Source: a virus. Taken from it: DNA of 37,245 nucleotides. How positions within the stretch are numbered: position 1 is the stretch's first letter; every line of letters starts with the position of its first letter. This document shows, piece after piece, positions 990 to 23,674 of this stretch. The notes beneath the pieces were generated by a model. It did not search any database and was not told where the DNA came from. It was given only the letters and a program-made list of their open reading frames with translations. A program made the translations under genes and the position numbers. The stretch spans positions 1 to 37,245 of the IMG/VR virus record IMGVR_UViG_3300027983_000043. One strand, 5' to 3'.

Positions 990-1889
990 ATGAACCTCCT
1001 CCCATTCCTACTCCTACTGACCTCCTGCTCATACCTCACTAAACACGAGGGTAAGCAGACGGACGCGAGTTTGCCGTTGGACGGTTTGCGTGAGAAATAT
1101 AATGCGGTTTATCAGGAGGTTTTAGATGGACTTGACCCAGCTACAGGATGGATCAGCCATATTGACTGCGATAGTTTGCTTTGGAACGGCTTAGCATGTT
1201 CACTAGGTTTCCCCGTGAATATCGAGTTAGCAGAATACGAACCTGGCTTAATGGGAAGGCGTCCGAGAGAACCGCATGGGCAATGTTTTACTGAAGAAAA
1301 TGGCGATGTCGGTTCAAAAAGCTCAATGTCACGTGATTCAGCTACGGGATATCTTTCTTGTCTCTGGGGGAGGAAAGATCTGTTAGCTATGCAGCGGTTT
1401 GCTACTAGGTCGGAAAATAACGATTGGTTTATTGGAATACCTAAAGATCGTTTTTTTGAAACAAATCTCTATTTCAATCTCGCTGGATTACTTGGGAGAA
1501 TGATTTACGTAGCAAGTTCCGGGGCCGACGATAGATACTACCGAAGGACCGGATATCTCTACCCACCTGTTGAGAAAGACTTTGAACGTAACATACAAAC
1601 TCAGGGAATCTTGTTACAAGACGGCGTTGATGCGGCATACAATCTTACAACAGCTATAAACAAAGAAATGCTTGATAGGTTAAAGGAGAATGCGGCTGCT
1701 TATCCTGATGATTTTCTTTTTAGCGCGGCACTGGGGCGTTTCACAGGTGATCAGTCTCGCGCACTGGATCTTCTCCTATCTGACACTCTGGTTTGTCCGT
1801 CATACGCACGCGGTGAAAGGCCGGACGTTTACTGTAAAATTATTTGGATTCAAGCAGCTAAAATAGTGCTTGATCATTTAGATGATTAA
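990..1889 (+). CDS. Putative phage-encoded lipoprotein, unknown function
   Basis: This 299-residue protein begins [16 protein letters not shown], a short hydrophobic leader ending in a lipobox-like L-T-S-C with Cys13 as the expected lipidated residue. The rest is soluble, with several cysteines (around [15 protein letters not shown] and [16 protein letters not shown]) and helical C-terminal segments. I do not recognise the family. The start lies 4 nt after the tail-fibre stop, so it belongs to the late operon. Its 3' end overlaps the convergent HNH gene by 32 nt. Late phage lipoproteins can act in lysis (o-spanin type) or superinfection exclusion. It is much longer than a typical o-spanin, so exclusion or a virion/host-surface role is as likely. 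The Shine-Dalgarno (SD) sequence is weak, suggesting translational coupling. Confidence 0.75.
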
Positions 1890-2442
1890 CTTCTTTAATT
1901 TTCCTTCGCGCTTCTTTGCATCGTTCGTTTTTGCACGTTCGACATATGCGATAGGGAAGTTGGCTGGGAACAAGGTTTGCTAGTTCTAAAGCGTGACCTT
2001 TTGGACAATGTGTTTTGCTTTGGCAGTGTCTGCGTTTTTTTAGTGCGCAATCTTTATTATTATCAGAAGCAGTCCCGAGAAAGAGATGCGCTGGATTTAC
2101 GCAAGCTGGAACATCGCAAGTGTGACAAACAAAAAGATGGCCTGGATCTATTCCTGAAGCTATTTTGTAGCTTAACCGATGGGCTTTTAAAGGTCTTTTC
2201 CCATCGTTAATTTGGCCGTAGCCATGTTCGTTCTTAGAGCCAACCCAAGGCCAACAGGCGCTGTCGCTGTTTTTGTTTACGTATTTCCAGAATCTTTCAG
2301 CTATGTCGATGCGCGGTCTTGGAGGCTTAGGAATAATGTCGTAAGAGCCGGTTCTTTTTATTCTATAATAGTGCATATAGCAACAACCGGCTGTGCTCGC
2401 TTTCTTTTCACAACCATCTATTTTACATTTTTTGAAAGTCAT
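1858..2442 (-). CDS. Free-standing HNH homing endonuclease
   Basis: The 194-residue product starts [16 protein letters not shown], carrying an N-terminal Cys-rich segment. It then has the classic phage HNH core: [11 protein letters not shown], then [22 protein letters not shown], then TASDNN. The His, Asn and His catalytic and metal positions are visible, and CHTC plus CVNP can bind structural zinc. The C-terminal region [10 protein letters not shown]...CRTCKNERC is a second zinc-binding module common in this family. I place the start at the ATG preceded by AAGGGG, not at a longer upstream start. It is antisense to the late genes, its 3' end overlaps the lipoprotein gene by 32 nt, and it separates the tail genes from the holin pair. 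This is typical of a mobile homing gene inserted into a neighbour's operon. Confidence 0.9.
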
Positions 2443-2568
2443 AAAACCCCTTAGTAAAGTAGCCGGAAAATGACACAAGAGTCTAAACCCAGTATAATTT
2501 CAGTATCAGTTATTACATTTTTTTCGAGTATTTTGGAAGTACCGTTCCACGTGAAACAAGGGGATTAA

Positions 2569-2739: not shown

Positions 2740-2953
2740 AGAACAAATACAAGCTGGAAGCGTAAGCGGAAAACCGATCTACGTATCTAAGACCATGATC
2801 GCAGCAGGACTAACTGCAATCGCGCCGTATATCCCGTATGTCAGAGACTGGGTGCAGGCTGATCCAACTTCTGCAATGACCGTAGCTGGAATTTTGTTTG
2901 CGGTTCTACGTCTGGTATCGACGAAAAAGCTTGAGTGGAAAATAAAATTTTAA
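2732..2953 (+). CDS. Holin-like membrane protein
   Basis: The 73-residue product starts at GTG, overlapping the previous stop. The segment KPIYVSKTMIAAGLTAIAPYIPYV is a hydrophobic helix with the K-P-x-Y-x-S-K-T pattern I associate with a widespread group of small phage holin-like proteins. A second hydrophobic stretch (SAMTVAGILFAVLRLVS) is followed by a positively charged tail (TKKLEWKIKF). Two TM helices, small size and a basic C terminus fit a class II-type holin. It would permeabilise the inner membrane and release the endolysin, whose candidate gene is far away at 13.6-14.0 kb. Its 3' end overlaps a convergent minus-strand ORF by 113 nt. Confidence 0.65.
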   Translation: MSEEQIQAGSVSGKPIYVSKTMIAAGLTAIAPYIPYVRDWVQADPTSAMTVAGILFAVLRLVSTKKLEWKIKF

Positions 2954-3095
2954 GTCTCTTAATTTCTGCCAGTAAGACCGGGATATCTTGTACGAGCTTG
3001 TAGGCTGCGGCGCTACATGACAGGATATCCTGCAACTTTCGCGGCGAGATTGAGCAGTATCTGGTGCGTATGATGTTTATTTCTTCGGGGGTCAT
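2841..3095 (-). CDS. Small early protein, last gene of minus-strand operon
   Basis: This 84-residue ORF begins MTPEEINIIRTRYCSISPRK with SD AGGAAACTAA. The ATG shares ATGA with the stop of the preceding gene. The first half looks like a small phage helical protein (VQDIPVLLAEIKRLK, common near the ends of short phage proteins). The second half is out of character and is antisense to the holin gene, so the ORF probably ran on after losing an earlier stop. No function is recognised. The start is well supported; the C-terminal third could be a chance extension. Confidence 0.55.
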   Translation of the reverse strand: MTPEEINIIRTRYCSISPRKLQDILSCSAAAYKLVQDIPVLLAEIKRLKILFSTQAFSSIPDVEPQTKFQLRSLQKLDQPAPSL

Positions 3096-3307
3096 TTAGT
3101 TTCCTTCAGTTTTTCAAGTGCTTTATCTAAGTTACCCCAATATAAGTTACTTTCAGTATCCATAAGATCAGAGTATTTCCACATGACCTTATCTGCCGCT
3201 TTCCAAAGCTCAATCAAAAGGGGAACGACCGACATTATTTCGGTGTCATTCGCTGGTGATTTGTATTTCCTGCCGTCGTAGGTTCTTTGTAAGTCGTCGG
3301 GGGTCAT
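3092..3307 (-). CDS. Small early protein, unknown
   Basis: The 71-residue product begins MTPDDLQRTYDGRKYK. The chosen ATG has a well-placed SD (GAGGAAACGAA) and shares ATGA with the stop of the upstream gene; a longer open frame upstream lacks an SD. The first residues, MTP, and the ending ETK* mirror neighbouring genes because the SD of the next gene is encoded in the C-terminal codons. The protein is helical, with VVPLLIELWKAADKVMWKY and LDKALEKLKE, and has no Cys. It belongs to the coupled array downstream of RecE/RecT. No function is assigned. Confidence 0.65.
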   Translation of the reverse strand: MTPDDLQRTYDGRKYKSPANDTEIMSVVPLLIELWKAADKVMWKYSDLMDTESNLYWGNLDKALEKLKETK

Positions 3308-3549
3308 TTCGTTTCCTCGTCCAAAGTCCAAGCTGCTATCCGTGCAAGTTCTTGTCCTGTGTGCTGGCACTCTGATCCTGTCACTGCAATTGACAATGAT
3401 CTGTGCGAGTGCTGGAGTTCTCCGTTTATACCTGTTGCCTTGTCTAAGATAATTCGGGCAATGTTTTTGTCCATTTTGTACTCCGTATAACCATCGCTCC
3501 GTTTTACGAATTCCCTACCGTTTGAGTCAAATCCTGTCGTCCAGCTCAT
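3304..3549 (-). CDS. Small early protein, unknown
   Basis: This 81-residue ORF starts MSWTTGFDSNGREFVKR at an ATG with SD GAGGAAACG that overlaps the upstream stop (ATGA). It ends DEETK*. The 15 bases 3304-3318 (its own end) and 3546-3560 (the preceding gene's end) are identical, so the two junctions are copies. The middle (DKNIARIILDKATGINGELQHSHRS) is probably helical. There are no recognised motifs. It is likely an early accessory protein of the RecE/RecT operon. Confidence 0.65.
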   Translation of the reverse strand: MSWTTGFDSNGREFVKRSDGYTEYKMDKNIARIILDKATGINGELQHSHRSLSIAVTGSECQHTGQELARIAAWTLDEETK

Positions 3550-3740
3550 TTCGTTTCCTCTTCCATCCATTTGCGACACTTGATTAGATGCTCGATAATT
3601 TTCTCCAACTCGTCCATATCTAAAGTATCTAAACCGCATTCGTTTCTAAACTCGACAAGCTTGCGTACTTTTTTATCTGCCTTCCAATTTTTGCAGGTGA
3701 CTTTAAAAAGGAAAGTTTTTAGTTGGCGGGGTTTAGTCAT
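3546..3740 (-). CDS. Small basic early protein, unknown
   Basis: This 64-residue ORF begins MTKPRQLKTFLFKVTCKNWK at an ATG placed 2 nt after the upstream stop (TGAAGATG), with SD GGAGGG. A TTG two codons earlier would give MKM, but the ATG has the better context. The N-terminal half is strongly basic and the C-terminal half (MDELEKIIEHLIKCRKW) is helical, ending EEETK*. Basic N-terminal composition allows nucleic-acid binding but no fold is recognised. Confidence 0.6.
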   Translation of the reverse strand: MTKPRQLKTFLFKVTCKNWKADKKVRKLVEFRNECGLDTLDMDELEKIIEHLIKCRKWMEEETK

Positions 3741-3742
3741 CT

Positions 3743-3988
3743 TCAACTTTCGCCCTCCACAAGCCTAAGTGCTCTCTCTGCCCAATACTCTAATCTGTGT
3801 GAATCGTCTCCGTTGTAACATGACTCTACACTTGATATGTCTCTGATAAAATCAGCCATTGTCTGCAAACATTGTTTGCAATTTGCTTCGCCGCAGTCTT
3901 CAGAATACCTGTGCTCAGATTCATATGTGCCACAAACCACTGCGGTATCCGCTGGTCCTTTTTGTCTAAGGGTCAGATGTATTGTCAT
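3743..3988 (-). CDS. Small Cys-containing early protein, unknown
   Basis: The 81-residue product begins MTIHLTLRQKGPADTAVVCG, with SD CTAGAGG. The start overlaps the upstream stop as ATGA. The middle carries EDCGEANCKQCLQT, where C-x4-C-x2-C could bind a metal, and the C-terminal SHRLEYWAERALRLVEGES is helical. It ends GES*, its last codons encoding the SD of the next gene. No family is recognised. Confidence 0.65.
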   Translation of the reverse strand: MTIHLTLRQKGPADTAVVCGTYESEHRYSEDCGEANCKQCLQTMADFIRDISSVESCYNGDDSHRLEYWAERALRLVEGES

Positions 3989-4155
3989 TTCTTTTCCTCT
4001 AGTTTAACCGTCCCACGGTAGTCACAGGACGGATCTTTCCCGCCGCCGATAAAAGTGCACCAAACGTCTCCCCGCTGATTTAAAAGAATCGTACTACAAC
4101 ACTTTGGACACCTTGGAGCGACTAAAAGAATCGGCCATTGTTTTTGTTCACTCAT
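3985..4155 (-). CDS. Zinc-ribbon small protein
   Basis: This 56-residue protein starts MSEQKQWPILLVAPRCPKCC at an ATG nested 8 nt inside the previous gene's end (ATGAGTGA). The pattern C-P-K-C ... V-W-C ... S-C-D-Y is a compact zinc ribbon, as in many phage transcription- or DNA-associated small proteins. A longer frame upstream exists, but the SD GAGGTTGAAG precedes this ATG. It is translationally coupled within the early array. Zinc binding is inferred from the motif; the role is unknown. Confidence 0.65.
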   Translation of the reverse strand: MSEQKQWPILLVAPRCPKCCSTILLNQRGDVWCTFIGGGKDPSCDYRGTVKLEEKK

Positions 4156-4375
4156 CTTCAACCTCAATAACCACGGCATGTTTCTTTTTAAATTTGTCGC
4201 AGGCATGATCAGAGGACGATGGGCCTTTTGAATAACCCGTCATGTTTCTGTGCTCTCTTGGGCATTCAGATGTTTTCATCCAATGGTCACATCTCCCGCA
4301 TTCATTTATTAAGCCTTCAATTTTCGCTTTATCGATTAGGGCCATTGTTATTGCATAACGAAGATCTTCACTCAT
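4148..4375 (-). CDS. Small Cys-rich protein
   Basis: The 75-residue product starts MSEDLRYAITMALIDK at an ATG overlapping the previous stop by 8 nt. It carries CGRCDHW...SECPRE...HACDKF, a C-x2-C ... C-P ... C-x-K-F arrangement that I recognise as a recurrent type of small putative zinc-binding phage protein. It ends VIEVEDE*, exactly as the preceding gene does, because the 22-nt junctions 4147-4168 and 4367-4388 are identical. No biochemical function is known to me. Confidence 0.65.
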   Translation of the reverse strand: MSEDLRYAITMALIDKAKIEGLINECGRCDHWMKTSECPREHRNMTGYSKGPSSSDHACDKFKKKHAVVIEVEDE

Positions 4376-4517
4376 CTTCAACCTCAATGACTCCAGTAGC
4401 ATTACAAATCTGACATTGAATAATTACAGGTTCGCCGCAACATTCGTCGCTCCCCATTCCGCAACATTCCTGTGTCGCACCGTAGCCACCGCAGTGATGG
4501 CATTTTTGTTCAGTCAT
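4368..4517 (-). CDS. DnaJ-type Cys-rich mini zinc-finger protein
   Basis: This 49-residue protein starts MTEQKCHHCGGYGATQECCG. It contains two C-x2-C-x-G-x-G-like knuckles (CHHCGGYG and CQICNATG) enclosing a further Cys-rich loop (ECCGMGSDECCG). This resembles a single DnaJ zinc-finger unit without any J domain. It ends VIEVEDE*. The start lies in the 8-nt overlap ATGACTGA with the upstream gene. Such mini-DnaJ fingers are frequent among small phage proteins; the target is unknown. Confidence 0.65.
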   Translation of the reverse strand: MTEQKCHHCGGYGATQECCGMGSDECCGEPVIIQCQICNATGVIEVEDE

Positions 4518-4779
4518 CTTCGACCTCTTTTTGTAACCGCGGGAAAAACCGAACATCGTAATCAGCAGTAACGTTGTATTTAAATACCCTTCCTGGGTCA
4601 TCTACAGCCCGGACTTCGACGATAAGATTAAAATCATTAGCGTCACAATCCCCGTCACCCTGATCCCAATACTCTTCTGCTACGGTATGTGCCACATCTT
4701 CTATACTCCACGTATTGCCTAAAAACTCTTGCCATTGGTCGCCGTGATTTTCATGCCGGTATTCATACTTAGGTTTCAT
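4510..4779 (-). CDS. Small acidic early protein, unknown
   Basis: The 89-residue product begins MKPKYEYRHENHGDQWQEF and is strongly acidic in the middle (EEYWDQGDGDCDANDFN) and at its end (KEVEDD*). It starts at an ATG that overlaps the upstream stop (ATGA), with SD GAGG in the end of the upstream gene. An acidic DNA-mimic role is possible from charge alone, but no family is recognised. Confidence 0.65.
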   Translation of the reverse strand: MKPKYEYRHENHGDQWQEFLGNTWSIEDVAHTVAEEYWDQGDGDCDANDFNLIVEVRAVDDPGRVFKYNVTADYDVRFFPRLQKEVEDD

Positions 4780-5123
4780 TCCTCAACCTCAACGACCACG
4801 GCTGGGTATTCAGTAATTAAGCGAATAGCACGCTCTGGTTTTGTCTCGTACAAATCGGAAGTAATCCAGTAGGTATGATTACTAATGTTTCTGCACAAAG
4901 CTGGATACAGCTTCACCGTTTTCTTTTCAGGCGGGAGAATGTCGTAAACGGATTCTCTACCACTGTCGCTGAAACTACCGCTCAAAAATCTAACTTGTAT
5001 TATCTCGGTTTTCAAACACATAAATATTAACTGTGACCTAGCCTTAGCCTCCGGTGCGTACATCAAAAACTTGTACTCTTTGCCATCTCTGTCTCTGTAA
5101 ATCTCACCCACTTTAAATATCAC
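4776..5123 (-). CDS. Small early protein (MIFKVGEIY start), unknown
   Basis: I choose the GTG at 5123, preceded by GAGGAGAGGAGACGAG. Its coding start MIFKVGEIYRDRDGKEYKF resembles the start of a small beta-barrel domain. A TTG at 5156 would add 11 residues but would overlap the upstream gene by 44 nt. The choice is supported by a related copy of this start (MKFKVGENV) in the minigene at 5412-5441. The 115-residue protein is mixed beta with two cysteines and ends VVVEVEE*. Function is unknown. Confidence 0.6.
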   Translation of the reverse strand: MIFKVGEIYRDRDGKEYKFLMYAPEAKARSQLIFMCLKTEIIQVRFLSGSFSDSGRESVYDILPPEKKTVKLYPALCRNISNHTYWITSDLYETKPERAIRLITEYPAVVVEVEE

Positions 5124-5415
5124 CTCGTCTCCTCTCCTCGGTGCGGAGTTCTTCAATAGATTTTTCGAGTCGTTTTATACGTTCCTGAAGAACTGGAAAT
5201 TCATTGAATCGGTTAACCAGTTCGATAGAAACCAACATACATTCATCTGTATATTCCCTAGCAGGAAACTGCATCCATGGCTGAATGAAATAGAAGTCTT
5301 TTTTCGATGTGAACTCACAAAAGTCAAAGCTTTTGTCGAATTCGTAAAAAATATCGAAGCCCTTCCCGTTGACAGTGTTTTTGGCAGACAGTCTAAGCTT
5401 TCCAAAATCTTTCAT
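5113..5415 (-). CDS. Small early protein with C-terminal coiled coil
   Basis: This 100-residue ORF begins MKDFGKLRLSAKNTVNGKG; its ATG shares ATGA with the stop of a 9-codon minigene. The C terminus (LQERIKRLEKSIEELRTEERRR) is a clear coiled coil. The pattern LVSIELVNRFNEFPVLQERIKRLE echoes the helical end of the 2841-3095 gene (DIPVLLAEIKRLK), suggesting a shared helical module. The last codons encode the SD for the next gene. Function is unknown. Confidence 0.6.
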   Translation of the reverse strand: MKDFGKLRLSAKNTVNGKGFDIFYEFDKSFDFCEFTSKKDFYFIQPWMQFPAREYTDECMLVSIELVNRFNEFPVLQERIKRLEKSIEELRTEERRRGDI

Positions 5416-5441
5416 ACGTTCTCACCAACTTTAAATTTCAT
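5412..5441 (-). CDS. Coupled minigene MKFKVGENV (9 codons)
   Basis: A 9-codon reading frame, MKFKVGENV*, begins inside the ATGA stop of the upstream gene and ends in another ATGA, which starts the next gene. Its sequence matches the start of the gene at 4776-5123 (MIFKVGEIY) at both protein and DNA level. It is therefore probably a truncated duplicate retained as a translational coupling leader. The geometry is certain; whether the peptide has a function is unknown. Confidence 0.4.
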   Translation of the reverse strand: MKFKVGENV

Positions 5442-5644
5442 TTCGGATTATCCATTCTAAAAATACATGCCAAGCAAGTAGTCTCACTCCGAGTTTTAAC
5501 CACTTTATTCACCGAACTCGCGTCTTTTCTACAAGCCAGGATGGTTCTCCCGGCCTGTACTCCGACTATGAAATGCGCCCTTTTGTTCTTATCCCTGCCG
5601 AGCGGTTGACCTTCGGGCAGTGGTTTGAATTTCCGTCTATTCAT
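5438..5644 (-). CDS. Small basic Cys-containing early protein
   Basis: The 68-residue product starts MNRRKFKPLPEGQPLGRDKN at an ATG inside an 8-nt overlap (ATGAATAG) with the preceding gene, with GGTG just upstream. It is basic and carries C-x-n-C-x2-C (ILACRKD...TTCLACIFRMDN), which could bind zinc. Four codons of open frame upstream (MVIT, TTG start) are less likely. It ends in ATGA overlapping the minigene. No family is assigned. Confidence 0.6.
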   Translation of the reverse strand: MNRRKFKPLPEGQPLGRDKNKRAHFIVGVQAGRTILACRKDASSVNKVVKTRSETTCLACIFRMDNPK

Positions 5645-5777
5645 CGTTATCACCAAAAACCTTTCCGTAGGCTATTGAAACTACTTTTCCGGCGCAGACG
5701 TTACACAGTGGTTTCCCTTCTATCCAGATGCAGTAGCGCACTGGCTGAGGCTTTTCACACAGCAAACAAATGGGCAT
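5637..5777 (-). CDS. Short zinc-knuckle protein
   Basis: This 46-residue ORF reads MPICLLCEKPQPVRYCIWIE followed by GKPLCNVCAGKVV. The two pairs C-x2-C and C-x2-C, with an extra Cys between, give a compact zinc ribbon. The ATG directly follows AGAAGG. A GTG at 5801 would add MKKFPLRR but lacks an SD. The stop (TAG) overlaps the next gene's ATG by 8 nt, the same geometry as its neighbours, which supports it as a real gene despite its size. Confidence 0.55.
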   Translation of the reverse strand: MPICLLCEKPQPVRYCIWIEGKPLCNVCAGKVVSIAYGKVFGDNDE

Positions 5778-5994: not shown

Positions 5995-6256
5995 TAAGAT
6001 CACACTGGGATCTGTAGTATTTGAGTTCTCCGAGGTGTTTCGCGAAATTTCCGAGTAAATCTCTGATATTTGATTCAATAGAGTCAAGTTCTTCCGTGTC
6101 ATTGATATGCTCCTTTACGCAATCGGTTATGTCTTTGAACAAGTCGGTCATTTCCTCGGCGGTGCTTTGCAGCTGCTTTGCTCTGGACTTGGCGCTGACT
6201 TGAAAGCTCAGGTTCACGCTTTCTGAGTCGCTTTGCGGAATATAGGGCCTAGCCAT
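5972..6256 (-). CDS. Helical early protein downstream of RecT, unknown
   Basis: The 94-residue product starts MARPYIPQSDSESVNLSFQV at an ATG nested 8 nt inside the RecT stop (ATGGCTAG); an earlier ATG at 6265 is less typical of this array. The central region is a long acidic amphipathic helix (EEMTDLFKDITDCVKEHIND, then ELDSIESNIRDLLGNFAKHL). Tight coupling to recT suggests a co-regulated accessory role, but no family is recognised. Confidence 0.65.
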   Translation of the reverse strand: MARPYIPQSDSESVNLSFQVSAKSRAKQLQSTAEEMTDLFKDITDCVKEHINDTEELDSIESNIRDLLGNFAKHLGELKYYRSQCDLNGVPWSD

Positions 6257-6941
6257 CAACGTCATTGGCCTCTATTACCTCGAACCTGCTTTGGAGTTCT
6301 GACGCAGGACTTGCAATCGCCGTCGCAACCAGGACGCCCTCATCTTCAGGGTTAACATTTGCATCGTATTCAGCGATCGCGATACCGTTCAGCGCGTCAG
6401 GAAATTTATCTTTTAGTGCCTGTGAACGGGCTCTGTAGCGCAGCATTCTCTTGGCGTATTTTTTCCAGGTAACGTTACCTAGCAGGCCAGCTTTATCCGC
6501 TTCAGCCAAAGTAAATGAGCACTCTTCAACTTCGGGGTCGCCTCGGCGCTTGATCTGGATAGCCGCTCCGAAAACCTCTGCTAAGAGATTTCCATTTTCG
6601 GTACAGATCTTTTTCTGGTCCTTGTCGAACCACCATTCCCTTTTCCATTCTACGAGATTTTTTGCGTAGCAAAGTGCCATGGGCAAATCCCCCCAGATGC
6701 TGGGATTTCCGTTAATAACTGAAATCTGCCTTAGTGCCGTCATAGGCTTCAGACCGAGTTCGCAGGCAAACTGCATACCGACGAAAACCTGCTCGGGTGT
6801 TTTATACTGGGCGGGCATCATGCCTGACATACATAGGGCTTTCGAGACCCTGAACGCCTCATCGATAGTCGTAGGCAGGACTACCCCGTCAACCACCATA
6901 ACCTCTGGTTTTTTAATTTCAACTGCTGCCGTCTTTTCCAT
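6249..6941 (-). CDS. recT: RecT-family single-strand annealing protein
   Basis: The 230-residue protein has the phage RecT-like core: ELGLKPMTALRQISVINGNP followed by IWGDLPMALC, then FTLAEADKAGLLG, then WKKYAKRMLRYRARSQALKD. In this family these segments form the DNA-annealing fold that coats and anneals single strands at recombination ends. Start ATG 6941 has SD AAAGGGG and gives MEKTAAVEIKK. It lies 11 nt after the RecE-like gene, its usual partner. Together they should perform strand resection and annealing for recombination and concatemer formation. Confidence 0.9.
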   Translation of the reverse strand: MEKTAAVEIKKPEVMVVDGVVLPTTIDEAFRVSKALCMSGMMPAQYKTPEQVFVGMQFACELGLKPMTALRQISVINGNPSIWGDLPMALCYAKNLVEWKREWWFDKDQKKICTENGNLLAEVFGAAIQIKRRGDPEVEECSFTLAEADKAGLLGNVTWKKYAKRMLRYRARSQALKDKFPDALNGIAIAEYDANVNPEDEGVLVATAIASPASELQSRFEVIEANDVDG

Positions 6942-6952
6942 ATAAACCCCTT

Positions 6953-7780
6953 TCAAGAGATAGAAATTGTTTCGAACTTCATTGGATATCCCGGCCATTT
7001 ACCGGTTTTTAAGCACTCAGCGTATTTGTCCAGGGCTTCCCTATACAGGGTGTTTCCTGTTTCAATTGTTATTTGGTCGGCGGCGTAAAAGCAGGCACCA
7101 TAGGGACGAGATTTTTCAACAGCGAGCCACGCGAAAAAGTTTACCGGCATGAACTTAGAAAAACCCTCCAGGTAGTAAGCGGCTGACAGGTGATATTTGA
7201 GGTATTTTACCGAACTCTTAAAATCGCCGACGGCATTTATGCAGGACTTCAAATCGATTACGGTATCAGCGTTTATGATGTCAGCCCGGACCTTGCACAG
7301 GACGCCTGTTTTCTCGTCGGTCCAGTAGGCGCTCACTTCGGTGTAGTTTCCTGCCAGGAGTTTCATAGCCATCGGGTTTTGATTTAGCGTAGCGGCGAGA
7401 CCTGTTACTAAATCGTAGTCAGATTGATCGACGCATTTTTTATCCTTGTTTTCAGCGAGAAAAACAGCCTTTTCAGCCTGGCTGTCTTTTGATCTTCCGA
7501 ACTTTTTAGATATGACTACCGTTGACGCGAATAGGTCTGGCTCCAGTACCGCGAGATGAATCAAGGTTCCCAGCGCCATCGCAGGGGTTTCTTTTTTCTC
7601 GCCCTCTTTGGATACCTGGTAGTGAGCTGGCGACCGCAGGATTTCTTTTAGGCCGGATGAGCTAATGCCAGGGCCTGCGTGGTAGACCTCGTTAGGTAGG
7701 TCAAAAAGTCCAGTGAGTTCTCCTGACTCATTAAGCTTATTGAGTTCCTCAACAGAAGTTATCCGTTTGAGCTCTGACAT
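6953..7780 (-). CDS. recE: RecE-like exonuclease (PD-(D/E)XK)
   Basis: The 275-residue protein has the C-terminal RecE/exonuclease VIII-type domain. Its N-terminal part carries LPNEVYHAGPGISSSGLKEI and SPAHYQ. ALGTLIHLAVLEP is a family hallmark helix. The catalytic core KVRADIINADTVIDLKSC supplies the D-x-K metal site, and YHLSAAYYLEGF follows. ATG 7780 (MSELKRITS) has SD CGGAG. It is first in the minus-strand early operon, directly before recT. The product would be a 5'-3' double-strand exonuclease generating 3' tails for the annealing protein. Confidence 0.9.
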   Translation of the reverse strand: MSELKRITSVEELNKLNESGELTGLFDLPNEVYHAGPGISSSGLKEILRSPAHYQVSKEGEKKETPAMALGTLIHLAVLEPDLFASTVVISKKFGRSKDSQAEKAVFLAENKDKKCVDQSDYDLVTGLAATLNQNPMAMKLLAGNYTEVSAYWTDEKTGVLCKVRADIINADTVIDLKSCINAVGDFKSSVKYLKYHLSAAYYLEGFSKFMPVNFFAWLAVEKSRPYGACFYAADQITIETGNTLYREALDKYAECLKTGKWPGYPMKFETISIS

Positions 7781-7803
7781 AAAAACACTCCGAGATTTTG
7801 GAT

Positions 7804-7832: not shown

Positions 7833-8000
7833 GGGCTCAATCCCGACAAAAGATTAAAGCCCCTGTATGCGAACAGCGCGAACGCTGGAATCACCAAATT
7901 TGCCTCTATCAAAGGCGAACACCCTTTCAGCACCTATCCGGGTAATCAGCCCTTAACTCACATCGCCAAAGCGTCGTGCGTGATTGCTTTATTGCACCAC

Positions 8001-8036
8001 TTGCCACTTAGGTCAAGAAATTATAATTAGTGGCAA
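8001..8036 (+). promoter_or_regulatory. Operator-like inverted repeat overlapping a promoter before the XRE gene
   Basis: TTGCCACT (8001-8008) and AGTGGCAA (8029-8036) form a perfect 8-bp inverted repeat with a 20-bp spacer. The left arm overlaps a -35-like TTGCCA and the spacer contains TATAAT (8022-8027), though the -35/-10 gap is only 15 bp. The neighbouring CCACTTGCCACTT includes, on the minus strand, TGGCAAGTG, one base from the TGGTAAGTG core repeated at 18.3-18.7 kb. This suits autoregulation by the downstream HTH protein. There is no gene between 7781 and 8055. Confidence 0.5.
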
Positions 8037-8055
8037 TTATCACGACAGGCAACCG

Positions 8056-8439
8056 ATGAACTTTACAAGAGAATATGCGATATCTGAGTCCGATATTTTG
8101 AATGGGCTAAGAATGGTTCGCAAGGTGCGCGATGCCTTTGCACTTGGGCTTGGTAGGCTCATGCGGTCGCAGGGGTTATCACAAAAACAATTTGCCCAGA
8201 AATTCGGGACCACTGAAGCAACGGTTTCTCGCTGGATGACTGCGGAAAAAATACCGAATTACCCGACAATTGACCGGATCTGTGAGTTCTTCTCAGTTGA
8301 CCCTCAGGTGCTTTTGTCGCCGGACGAATCATTGAGTATCGCTGGTCACGGAAAAATCGTTTTAGACCTTGAGAAGATCGCAGCCGAATCAGGCTATATC
8401 ATTCAAAAAAGGACTCTTAAGCGACCAAAGAAAATGTAA
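8056..8439 (+). CDS. XRE-family (Cro/CI-like) HTH transcriptional regulator
   Basis: The 127-residue product starts MNFTREYAISESDILNGLRM; a longer frame from 7984 has no SD and would run through the operator. Residues about 35-90 hold a canonical XRE helix-turn-helix: LGRLMRSQGLSQKQFAQKFG, TTEATVSRWMTAEKIPNYPT, IDRICEFFSV. The C-terminal tail is short and basic (KRTLKRPKKM), with no S24 peptidase domain, so it is not a RecA-cleavable CI. It lies between divergent early operons beside an operator-like repeat and probably controls both. The SD is weak. Confidence 0.85.
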   Translation: MNFTREYAISESDILNGLRMVRKVRDAFALGLGRLMRSQGLSQKQFAQKFGTTEATVSRWMTAEKIPNYPTIDRICEFFSVDPQVLLSPDESLSIAGHGKIVLDLEKIAAESGYIIQKRTLKRPKKM

Positions 8440-20491: not shown

Positions 20492-21306
20492 GTGATTTAG
20501 AAGCAGAAGTTACACAGGCAAACACCGACGACGAGATTGAGATTCATTACGACGACAAGGGTCTATCGTTAATGAAGTTGATCAAAAATTGGCTTGGCAC
20601 AACCAAAGCGATAAGTGAAATCCCTGCCGAGCTTTTCGAGTTAACCGAACGCGAGTTAATGAAAGAGCCCGACGATGTTCACAGGCGTCTAAAGATTTCT
20701 TTTTGGAACGAGTTCAGCGCAGCGCAGCGTCAGAAATCCGAGTACATGACTTTGCAGAATGTGATTCACGGCGTTTGCTCTTATTCGTATTGGAAAAATA
20801 AAGTTGTTACTAATCCCACTTTACTTGCGTGGCTTATCACGCCTCCCGCGCATCAGACCCTGGTATGGCAGGAGTTAATTCAGCTCGGCGAGAATAAGTT
20901 GCGCAGGGCTCTCAAGATTCAGCTCGTAGAAAAAAGATTCTGGAAAGACAAGACGGGCGAGGTCCATGTTGAGAAACGTGCGAACGTGGCTTTGATAAAA
21001 GAAGTCCGCTCCATCGTGGAAATGTTGCAAAACCGCTTGCATGGTACGGTCGTCCAGCGGCAGGAAATCCAGTCTAAATCTTTGCACGTGAATGTTAATC
21101 AGAATCAGAAAGATGTGGCACAGGACAAGCCGATGTCTGCTGACGAGCAAATGGGCGAGATTGACAAAATGCTTAAGCGCATTGAGAAAGTCGCCGCTGC
21201 CATGCCCGAGTTACCTGAAGCCGAAGTTGAGAGCGAAAGCGATCTCGTAATGAAAAAAGAAAAGAGAAAAAAGTTTGTCGAAACAGAGGCCACTTACGAG
21301 GAGTGA
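20488..21306 (+). CDS. Putative terminase small subunit
   Basis: The 272-residue product starts at GTG (MSDLEAEVTQANTDDEIEIH) with GGGAG upstream. It has a helical central domain (IPAELFELTERELMKEPDDV, LLAWLITPPAHQTLVWQELI, KLRRALKIQL) and a C-terminal part with a Gln/Asn-rich stretch and a coiled coil (QMGEIDKMLKRIEKVAAAMP), then a basic/acidic tail. Its position directly before terL, with a 32-nt overlap, and its oligomerisation-type helices fit TerS, which recognises phage DNA. The assignment is mainly from position. Confidence 0.6.
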   Translation: MSDLEAEVTQANTDDEIEIHYDDKGLSLMKLIKNWLGTTKAISEIPAELFELTERELMKEPDDVHRRLKISFWNEFSAAQRQKSEYMTLQNVIHGVCSYSYWKNKVVTNPTLLAWLITPPAHQTLVWQELIQLGENKLRRALKIQLVEKRFWKDKTGEVHVEKRANVALIKEVRSIVEMLQNRLHGTVVQRQEIQSKSLHVNVNQNQKDVAQDKPMSADEQMGEIDKMLKRIEKVAAAMPELPEAEVESESDLVMKKEKRKKFVETEATYEE

Positions 21307-23674
21307 GGAAAAACTCCTCGCTGATAAAAAGCGCGTTTTGCTCCAGAAAAGAGAGGAGTTCAAAGACGGGCTCCCCTTTTTATATGGGCACAAGTGGTAT
21401 TCTTGGCAGAGGCAATTTTACAATTCACGCTGTAATATGCGGTTATTCTCGGCTGGTAATCAATTGGGCAAAAGCTCGGTACATCAATGGGATAAAATAA
21501 ATCGCGCAACAAATTTAAAAATGCACGAAGAGTTTTGGCCAGGTAGAAAGCCGGATCTTTTCTGGTATTGGATGACTGACCAGGCGACACTAGACCGCGA
21601 AGTAAAATTAAAATGGATGCGCTGGTTACCGCAGGGTGCGTTTAAAGATTCTGACCAGTACGGTTGGAAACTCGATGCAAATAAAAAAGGGGAAGAAGTC
21701 AAGGGTATTATTTTTAACTCAGGAATAACACTTGAATTCAAGCTTTACACTCAGAGCCCAAGGAATATTCAGAGTGCGACCGTGTTTGACATGGGATGCT
21801 TTCCTCACGGCACACCCATCATTACAAAAAGGGGCACGATCCCTATCGAGCAGGTAGTGGTCGGCGATCTAGCTCTAAGCGAAGCCGGTTGGAAACCTGT
21901 TGAAAAAGTTATGACCAGAAGGTCGGACGTACTAACAAGAGAGTTTGAAAACGGTGAGATAGTTAGGGCTACTCCAGAGCATCCATACTGGACAAAAAAT
22001 CGCGGTTGGATTGCATTTTCAGACTTGAAAACAAGCGATATTTGCGTTAAACATCCCCTATGGAACCTGATAAAGAAATCGTATTATTCGAAGGTAATTT
22101 GTACACGCGTTTTCCGCAAAGCGATGACGTTCGTATCAAGAATTACTTTAGAGGCTCGCTCGGTAAGAGAAACTCTTCGAAGTTTCTCCATGTCGCTATT
22201 TGGGAAAGCCATAACAGCAGAACCGTTCCAGATGGATATGTTATCCATCACAAAAATTTCATCGCCCTTGATAATCGATTATCCAACCTCCAGCTGCTCA
22301 CCAGAAGCGAGCACACCACAATTCACAAGCTTGAAGAGTGGAAAGAAAAAGGCGTTTACGAATGTACATGCCAGAAATGCGGAGAAGTTTTCGAAACCAG
22401 GAGCTCTAAGAAATTTATTAGGTTCTGTTCTATTAAGTGTAGAAGGGTTACGGAAACTCGCAGTTGCGTATGTTGTGGAAAAGAGTTTGAAGTCAGGGGT
22501 CGGCCAAGCGAACTCAACAAGGTCAGAATTACGTGCTCGCCAGAATGTCGCAATATTAAAAGAATCCAATCAAGAGGTCATCAACCTCACAGTAGCTGAT
22601 TCTCATACCTATTTTGCCAACGGAATTTTAGTTCATAACTGTGACGAGGAAATGCCCCTTTCGTTCTGGGATGAGGCGTCCCAACGTATATCCTCAACAG
22701 GCAGACACTTTTCAACGGGTTTCACCGCGACACTAAATCAACTTATGTGGTGGCGAGCACTGGAGGGTAAAGGTGCATCAGAGAAGTTCCCGGATGCTTT
22801 CAAGTTACAGGTTTCGAAGTTTGATTGTTTGGTGTTTGATGACGGATCACCAGGTTTGTACACTGAAGAGCAAATCCATGAAGAGATTAAGAACTGTTCT
22901 TCCGAGGCCCAAGTAAACCGCAGGATTTACGGTAAATTCGCACCCGAGTCAGGTCTTAAGTATCACGCGTTTGATCCAGCGAGACATTACATCGACCCGG
23001 TGCCGATCCCGATCGACTGGCTAAGATATTCGGGTGTTGATATTGGTTCAGGCGGTGACAAAAATCATCCCGGCGCATTTTTTTTCATCGCTGTGCGTCC
23101 AGATATGAAACTCGGTTATGTATTCAAGGGCCGCAGGCTTGACGACATCGTTACAACCGCAGGCGATATTTTAAATTACTACATCGTCGAACGAGCCTCT
23201 GATGAAATGACGGATCAGGCTTACGATTATCATTCGAAAGAGTTTGGTCTCATAGCTGAGCGGGCCGGTGAAAGTTTTTCGATGGCTAACAAGTCTCACG
23301 AGCTTGGCGAGGACACGATCAACACGTTATTTGCCAATGACATGCTTTTTCTTTTCGATACCCCTGAGGTCAGAAAAATCGGGGAAGAGATGCTGACATT
23401 GATGAAGAGTACGGACAAGAGAAAGGCTGTTGACGACGCTATAGATTCGTGCCGCTACGGATTGATGTGCGTCCCATGGGACTGGACAGCTGCCATTAAA
23501 AAACTAAAGCCCGTTGATAAGAAAGAAGAAAAACCCAGAGCCCTAACGAATGAGGAATATCTTGCCGATGAAATCAAAAGACGCCGAGGCGAAACCAAAG
23601 AGGACGATCAGGAAGGCTGGGGGGAACTCGGAGCAGAGATCGATTTCTGGAACAGTTTATATTCCGGATTCTGA
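21275..23674 (+). CDS. terL: Terminase large subunit, interrupted by an intein
   Basis: The 799-residue precursor starts at TTG (MSKQRPLTRS); no ATG occurs before the ATPase motif. Walker A is GNQLGKSS at residues 61-68. Walker B, TVFDMG|CDEEMP, is split by an intein between Gly174 and Cys456. Removing residues 175-455 restores a continuous motif and a 518-residue protein, normal for TerL. The C-extein carries the nuclease domain (RYSGVDIGSGGDK, KAVDDAIDSCRYGL with acidic residues). It powers DNA translocation through the portal and cuts concatemers. A complete HNH gene overlaps the intein in another frame. Confidence 0.92.
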   Translation: MSKQRPLTRSEEKLLADKKRVLLQKREEFKDGLPFLYGHKWYSWQRQFYNSRCNMRLFSAGNQLGKSSVHQWDKINRATNLKMHEEFWPGRKPDLFWYWMTDQATLDREVKLKWMRWLPQGAFKDSDQYGWKLDANKKGEEVKGIIFNSGITLEFKLYTQSPRNIQSATVFDMGCFPHGTPIITKRGTIPIEQVVVGDLALSEAGWKPVEKVMTRRSDVLTREFENGEIVRATPEHPYWTKNRGWIAFSDLKTSDICVKHPLWNLIKKSYYSKVICTRVFRKAMTFVSRITLEARSVRETLRSFSMSLFGKAITAEPFQMDMLSITKISSPLIIDYPTSSCSPEASTPQFTSLKSGKKKAFTNVHARNAEKFSKPGALRNLLGSVLLSVEGLRKLAVAYVVEKSLKSGVGQANSTRSELRARQNVAILKESNQEVINLTVADSHTYFANGILVHNCDEEMPLSFWDEASQRISSTGRHFSTGFTATLNQLMWWRALEGKGASEKFPDAFKLQVSKFDCLVFDDGSPGLYTEEQIHEEIKNCSSEAQVNRRIYGKFAPESGLKYHAFDPARHYIDPVPIPIDWLRYSGVDIGSGGDKNHPGAFFFIAVRPDMKLGYVFKGRRLDDIVTTAGDILNYYIVERASDEMTDQAYDYHSKEFGLIAERAGESFSMANKSHELGEDTINTLFANDMLFLFDTPEVRKIGEEMLTLMKSTDKRKAVDDAIDSCRYGLMCVPWDWTAAIKKLKPVDKKEEKPRALTNEEYLADEIKRRRGETKEDDQEGWGELGAEIDFWNSLYSGF
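21797..22639 (+). other. Intein in TerL at Walker B (281 codons)
   Basis: Block A starts at Cys1 (CFPHGTPIITKRGTIPIEQV, VVGDLALS). Block B has the T-x-x-H motif (TPEHPYWT, precursor residues 233-240). Block F is VINLTVADSHTYF and block G is LVHN followed by Cys+1. These are the standard splicing residues of a class 1 intein. The roughly 170 residues between blocks B and F are not a LAGLIDADG or HNH domain in this frame; they are the out-of-frame translation of the HNH gene at 22060-22599. The functional part is therefore a mini-intein with a long linker. Confidence 0.92.
22060..22599 (+). CDS. HNH homing endonuclease nested in the intein in an alternative frame
   Basis: The 179-residue product starts MEPDKEIVLFEGNLYTRFPQ, a full-length HNH N terminus. 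The core is KFLHVAIWESHN, then DGYVIHHKNFIALDNRLSNL, then LLTRSEHTTIHK, with the H-N-H residues visible. Two Cys4 zinc modules follow (CTCQKCGEVF...CSIKC; CVCCGKEFEV...CSPEC). The frame is -1 relative to terL, with an in-frame TAA at 22048-22050, so it must initiate independently. No SD is visible. Its last codons overlap intein block F. By analogy with other intein endonucleases it would cut inteinless terL alleles to drive homing. Confidence 0.88.
   Translation: MEPDKEIVLFEGNLYTRFPQSDDVRIKNYFRGSLGKRNSSKFLHVAIWESHNSRTVPDGYVIHHKNFIALDNRLSNLQLLTRSEHTTIHKLEEWKEKGVYECTCQKCGEVFETRSSKKFIRFCSIKCRRVTETRSCVCCGKEFEVRGRPSELNKVRITCSPECRNIKRIQSRGHQPHSS

Follow-up and report, generated by a model that had tools for sequence, protein, structure and literature searches.

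Why do small genes of one phage, whose proteins do not resemble one another, end in the same few residues and hand over to their neighbours through the same few nucleotides? The question is raised by the window, that is, the whole 37,245-base stretch of DNA analysed here, the record of an uncultured virus without terminal repeats; the stretches of it that were searched against public phage records, by near and by distant searches, gave no nucleotide match. On its minus strand, the sequence and the ORF list give a chain from 2841 to 5777 made of 13 ORFs of 46-116 codons and one 9-codon ORF (Table 1), which the earlier note had counted as at least fourteen genes. Overlaps of 4 or 8 nt, described there as the rule, hold for 11 junctions (4 nt at seven, 8 nt at four), while D and E overlap by 11 nt and g5 and g4 are separated by a 2-nt gap or, should g4 begin at TTG 3746, share TTGA as an overlap. 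The 3′ 113 nt of g1 are antisense to a plus-strand gene at 2732-2953. None of the array genes matched Pfam above the cut-off, and PHROGs returned weak matches only, with D matching phrog_29630.

The chain does not stand alone. A leftward operon begins near 7,800 with a RecE-like gene followed by a RecT-like gene, and a helix-turn-helix regulator (7984-8439) diverges from it. The tiny-gene array forms the distal part of this RecE/RecT strand, presumably on a single transcript, and the best explanation makes it the accessory section of an early phage operon that runs from RecE through RecT to the tiny genes.

Table 1. Array genes, exact junction repeats and upstream recombination genes in the window.
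Feature	Position	Strand	Description
g1	2841..3095	-	84 aa (MTPEE...), final gene of the chain
g2	3092..3307	-	71 aa, tail KETK, 4-nt overlap with g1
g3	3304..3549	-	81 aa, tail EETK, 15-nt direct repeat at either side
g4	3546..3740	-	64 aa, tail EETK; separated from g5 by 2 nt (alternative start: TTG 3746)
g5	3743..3988	-	81 aa
Z	3985..4155	-	56 aa, CPxC zinc-ribbon-like, tail LEEKK
A	4148..4375	-	75 aa, cysteine-rich phage family, ends HAVVIEVEDE, 22-nt direct repeat at either side
B	4368..4517	-	49 aa, CxxCxG-type zinc-binding-like, tail VIEVEDE
C	4510..4779	-	89 aa, tail KEVEDD
D	4776..5123	-	about 115 aa from GTG, tail AVVVEVEE, resembling the A tail
E	5113..5415	-	100 aa, 11-nt overlap with D
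9-codon ORF	5412..5441	-	MKFKVGENV-stop, 4-nt overlaps at both ends
F	5438..5644	-	68 aa
G	5637..5777	-	46 aa, zinc-finger-like, 8-nt overlap with F
15-nt junction, copy 1	3304..3318	-	sense GAGGAAACGAAATGA: EETK-stop, SD, start
15-nt junction, copy 2	3546..3560	-	sense GAGGAAACGAAATGA
22-nt junction, copy 1	4147..4168	-	sense ATTGAGGTTGAAGATGAGTGAA: IEVEDE-stop, SD, start MSE
22-nt junction, copy 2	4367..4388	-	sense ATTGAGGTTGAAGATGAGTGAA
RecT-like ssDNA annealing protein	6249..6941	-	phrog_561, E 2.6e-21; upstream of the array, same operon
RecE/exonuclease VIII-like nuclease (DUF3799)	6953..7771	-	phrog_412, E 7.7e-76; upstream of the array, same operon

Two junction sequences of the array occur twice without a mismatch, TCATTTCGTTTCCTC over 15 nt and TTCACTCATCTTCAACCTCAAT over 22 nt, and variants of them are present at 3092, 3985, 4510 and 4776, all as the earlier note had reported. 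In sense orientation, two local families of junctions can be told apart. The first, (A)GAGGAAACGAAATGA and its variants, is found at 3095, 3307, 3549 and 3988; the second, TTGAGGTTGAAGATGANTGA and its variants, at 4155, 4375 and 4517, at 4779 in a form with a 4-nt overlap, and at 3740 in a shortened form. A single junction does encode the C terminus of one protein, the SD and the start of the next, as is borne out by the tails of g2, g3, g4, A, B, C and D in Table 1. Genes A and g3 are each exactly bracketed by a direct repeat, and recombination between the bracketing repeats would delete exactly A or g3 and leave a working junction behind.

When the array proteins were compared with each other, no similarity was found at E ≤ 1. 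Identity is thus limited to the gene boundaries while the bodies are unrelated, which is the pattern of boundary mosaicism and upholds the claim that unrelated proteins share tails. An old tandem duplication could in principle leave such a picture, if paralogues had diverged beyond recognition in their bodies while the ribosome-site constraint held their ends; Z, A, B and G do have their small size and richness in cysteine in common, the heads of Z and B follow M[ST]EQK (MSEQK and MTEQK, respectively), and similar junctions adjoin. We nevertheless regard this as very unlikely, given that the bodies have no similarity, that A comes from a separate phage family whose C terminus is different, and that third-position identity over 22 nt is unlikely to survive complete divergence of the bodies. 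It is extremely unlikely that the tails are shared as functional peptides under protein-level selection, for example as a degradation or partner-binding signal. Although VIEVEDE and EETK recur among unrelated proteins, the identity is at the nucleotide level, extends to synonymous positions and has its centre at the start codon and the SD, and the relatives of A in its family lack the tail.

A third alternative, one without any copying, is convergence, in which selection for coupled translation (SD, spacing, stop/start overlap and A-rich spacer) and the phage's codon bias would suffice. It accords with the junction core, which consists of precisely an SD and an overlap, ATGA or ATGANTGA, and with the g5/g4 junction, which has GTTGAAGATGA in another reading frame. 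Pairs of junctions were scored with an offset-tolerant scheme (match +1, mismatch −2) in a set of 186 SD-bearing overlap junctions taken from the window and related phage loci. Among the 91 array pairs, 14, 9, 5 and 4 score at least 11, 13, 15 and 17, respectively. By comparison, 14,378 cross-record junction pairs lead to expected numbers of 0.39, 0.10, 0.03 and 0.01, and 300 simulations that held each junction's SD core, start and stop fixed and drew the rest afresh from the array's own codons lead to 0.24, 0.03, 0.007 and 0; junction pairs being non-independent, these are strong but not exact probabilities. Similar junctions also cluster spatially (adjacent-pair permutation p=0.018; Mantel p=0.020). 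Duplicated records aside, an exact match of at least 14 nt through the start codon was seen in one cross-record pair, L019/L049, which has related upstream genes.

Furthermore, the other overlap junctions of the same phage lack the array's junction sequences, and the similarity is local and extends into tails and heads past the ribosome site: the A and D tails have GCCGTGGTnnTTGAGGTTGA in common, the Z and B heads TGAACAAAAA, and the g1 and g2 heads ATGACCCCCGA. The array junctions look copied, to a degree that, as the earlier note had supposed, goes beyond mere SD constraint, and convergence alone is unlikely.

Convergence does bear on the core of the junction. The exact 22-mer was found in no other viral contig, in a search that leaves out the window's own record; looser patterns gave 5 stretches in viral contigs, and the 20-nt junction form gave 6 in bacterial and archaeal genomes totalling 257 billion bases. 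All 6 of these bacterial stretches are gene junctions with dual use, whereas few of the viral stretches resemble genuine junctions. The 20-nt form, TTGAGGTTGAAGATGA[GC]TGA, is present in at least two unrelated types of bacterial gene pair. One of them is presumably a RelB-like antitoxin/YoeB-like toxin pair, ending in LIEVEDE before the stop codon and starting with MSEK, while the other we take to be MazG-like proteins that end in LIEVED[ED] before the stop codon and are followed by another gene (both were recognised by sequence, not by a family search). As these occurrences suggest, the string is a good solution to translation coupling that unrelated lineages have attained by convergence. We reject the idea that the 22-nt string is a specific recombination site, since unrelated bacterial gene pairs reach its 20-nt core, and the possibility that the junctions are recombination hot spots, which the earlier note had listed for a check, finds no support, the sequence being an ordinary translation-coupling junction. 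Yet the string is so rarely reached, with only 5 and 6 stretches in whole collections, that copying accounts better for two exact copies at a distance of 220 bp.

Gene A offers a view of one such event from its own family. A matches the Caulobacter phages CcrBL9/CcrSC and a gut phage scaffold, and its family comprises 11 other viral loci, the two Caulobacter phages among them; a search for the family in isolate genomes found none. Common to the family are C26, C29, C38, C59 and a G-S-GPS core, the core spanning C26-C59. Past the last core cysteine there are 29-43 residues in 11/11 family loci versus 16 in A (counted by eye), and the HAVVIEVEDE tail of A matches its neighbour B across the 22-nt repeat. 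Apparently, A traded its family's C terminus for the array tail. In addition, the 9-codon ORF agrees with the start of D at 85% of 26 nt, with MKFKVGE aligned to MIFKVGE (of MIFKVGEIY). This points to copying, the ORF being a putative leftover of a gene start that repeats D's.

Relatives of the portal protein were recovered from 44 loci by alignment, and 30 viral records were searched further. RecE was present in 5/30 of these records and RecT in none of the 30, and the array genes matched the relatives' DNA that was searched no better than E 0.02; when viral contigs were queried with RecT, D or RecE alone, no relatives of use came up. By these comparisons, the array's content is lineage-specific, and since no relative carrying the array was found, its breakpoints cannot be mapped. 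The check called for by the earlier note, that cassettes be gained or reordered with breakpoints inside the junctions, comes out positive instead in other phages with an A-family gene.

In L061, L062 and L064-L066, the A-family gene is framed by short linkers that follow the pattern TAACCC...TGGAGGnnnCCATG. Around this gene, these phages resemble one another over a block whose start is at 2864-2889 and whose end, in most pairs, is at 3209-3223; these limits fall at the linkers or within a few nt of them, and the neighbours differ. A GGGRR-type gene follows A in L061 but precedes it in L062, where it stands behind the same linker. A tail-plus-linker segment is common to L065 and L066, although their upstream genes look unrelated. 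Read from their sequences, these phages do show the A-family gene swapped singly, with breakpoints at short linkers. A comparable case is given by the phrog_1273 genes of L019, L049 and L048, in which the same AKARGES tail/SD/start segment precedes three unrelated downstream genes; tblastn with the L019 phrog_1273 protein against public phages gave no match. That small genes are swapped or duplicated at their junctions thus draws its support from the signs of junction copying, the A tail and single swaps elsewhere, but not from relatives of the array, none having been found with its genes.

We therefore consider it probable that translation selects the junction core, and that longer segments are copied by short-homology recombination during the gain, loss or duplication of single genes. 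Each gene ends in a short dual-use segment composed of its last codons, a ribosome-binding site (GAGG) and the overlap with the next start, and translation would probably be coupled from gene to gene via these segments, the core of which it would select. Copying of the longer segments from junction to junction may also proceed by illegitimate joining, and a gene inserted between two junction copies would stay translatable and take the local tail. The array itself may have originated by single-gene swaps like those of the A-carrying phages, with RecE/RecT or illegitimate joining as the copier.

The earlier note had assigned the swapping to the operon's own RecE/RecT. Both genes are present, but the exact repeats of 22 and 15 nt lie at or below the reported minimum exact pairing length of 23-27 bp for Red-beta, although Rad52-like recombinases promote exchange where homology is short or diverged (PMC3945230). 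For want of direct evidence, we reject the view that RecE/RecT is the proven agent, and since the repeats fall short of this minimum, their part as candidate agents of junction copying is plausible and is one that we infer. It is doubtful that the junctions are reusable cassette joints at which the phage, using its own RecE/RecT, would exchange, add and drop single genes during infection. If this were true, the junction would restore ribosome site, overlap and frame, such that an incoming gene would be expressed at once with the local tail.

How phage accessory arrays are assembled is debated, the choice being between boundary homology and illegitimate joining followed by selection. In the mycobacteriophage Island3, as in the array, adjacent unrelated genes have a C-terminal tail and junction DNA in common: gp67 and gp68 share 18 C-terminal residues and ~50 bp, which was read as boundary recombination, and the related Brujita lacks gene 68 (PMC3029335). 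With the present scoring, the gp67/gp68 junction pair scores 34, so that the published case is recovered. Island3 provides one ~50 bp pair and a related genome, whereas the array has several shorter copies and no close relative. The boundaries of lambdoid phages are classically common to different phages at equivalent positions, unlike the array copies, which sit at different positions of one genome. Such boundary or linker sequences, short and conserved, have been suggested to direct the exchange of modules (Susskind and Botstein 1978; Clark et al. 2001, on HK620; as cited in PMC3029335). The same scoring found no junction pair of at least 11 in the lambda O-to-Q region, contrary to our expectation of similar junctions in the lambda nin region.

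In cluster K mycobacteriophages, SAS/ESAS elements are repeated just upstream of the starts of unrelated small genes, the SAS having one 13-bp consensus across the phage cluster, sometimes with inverted repeats (PMC3203893). The array likewise repeats a short sequence at the starts of many unrelated small genes, but its junctions are inside coding sequence and of two local types, and its 22-mer is in no other viral contig; the SAS consensus, GGGATAGGAGCCC, is in neither junction type. ATGA-type start/stop overlaps between serial genes, with translational coupling, have been described (PMC6728339, PMC10666635), and coupling of this kind accounts for the junction core of the array, not for the long identities between junctions.

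Given the precedents of Island3 gp67/gp68 and the lambdoid boundary sequences, the array belongs to a known type of phage gene shuffling. Junction-copied shuffling is already known in phages, and the array is unusual in its copy number and in the location of the copies within coding sequence. With at least eight junctions in two copied families and one apparent tail swap, it constitutes an unusually dense record of boundary copying, and common C-terminal tails among small phage proteins need not imply homology or the same function.

The same KARGES tail ends the phrog_1273 genes of three viral loci, L019 (5464, minus strand), L049 (5182, minus strand) and L048 (1830, minus strand). In each case the tail holds the ribosome site for the next gene, and the three genes that follow are mutually unrelated. 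Two similar start junctions were also found in L004, a 4-kb viral contig with a RecE fragment, at 855 and 1058 (score 18 over 30 nt, at +1 per match and -2 per mismatch).

Repeated short intergenic linkers lie on the flanks of relatives of the array's gene A in phage contigs L061, L062, L064, L065 and L066 (~2864-3223). Among these five contigs cassettes have been exchanged and their order has changed, with the breakpoints falling within the linkers.

The 20-nt stop/start junction of the window phage is also present in bacterial stretches L074, L075, L078 and L079, and in L076 and L077. The bacterial gene pairs that carry it are unrelated, being RelB/YoeB-like, or MazG-like plus another gene; the junction common to these pairs and the phage is convergence.

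Elsewhere in the window, the large terminase gene contains an in-frame intein-like insert that matches an intein splicing domain (E 6.9e-08), with an HNH endonuclease ORF nested in its DNA.

Terminase gene and the ORF nested in its insert
Feature	Position	Strand or frame	Remark
Large terminase gene	21275-23674	+	contains intein-like insert 21797-22639
HNH endonuclease ORF	22060-22599	nested, other frame	HNH_3, E 2.5e-14

A free-standing HNH endonuclease gene (1858-2478, minus strand) lies between a tail-side gene and the lysis-like genes. Close to the latter is a small plus-strand gene (2732-2953), which the array's last gene, on the minus strand, overlaps in antisense by 113 nt (2841-2953). 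It is as if the last array gene had lost its own 3′ end.
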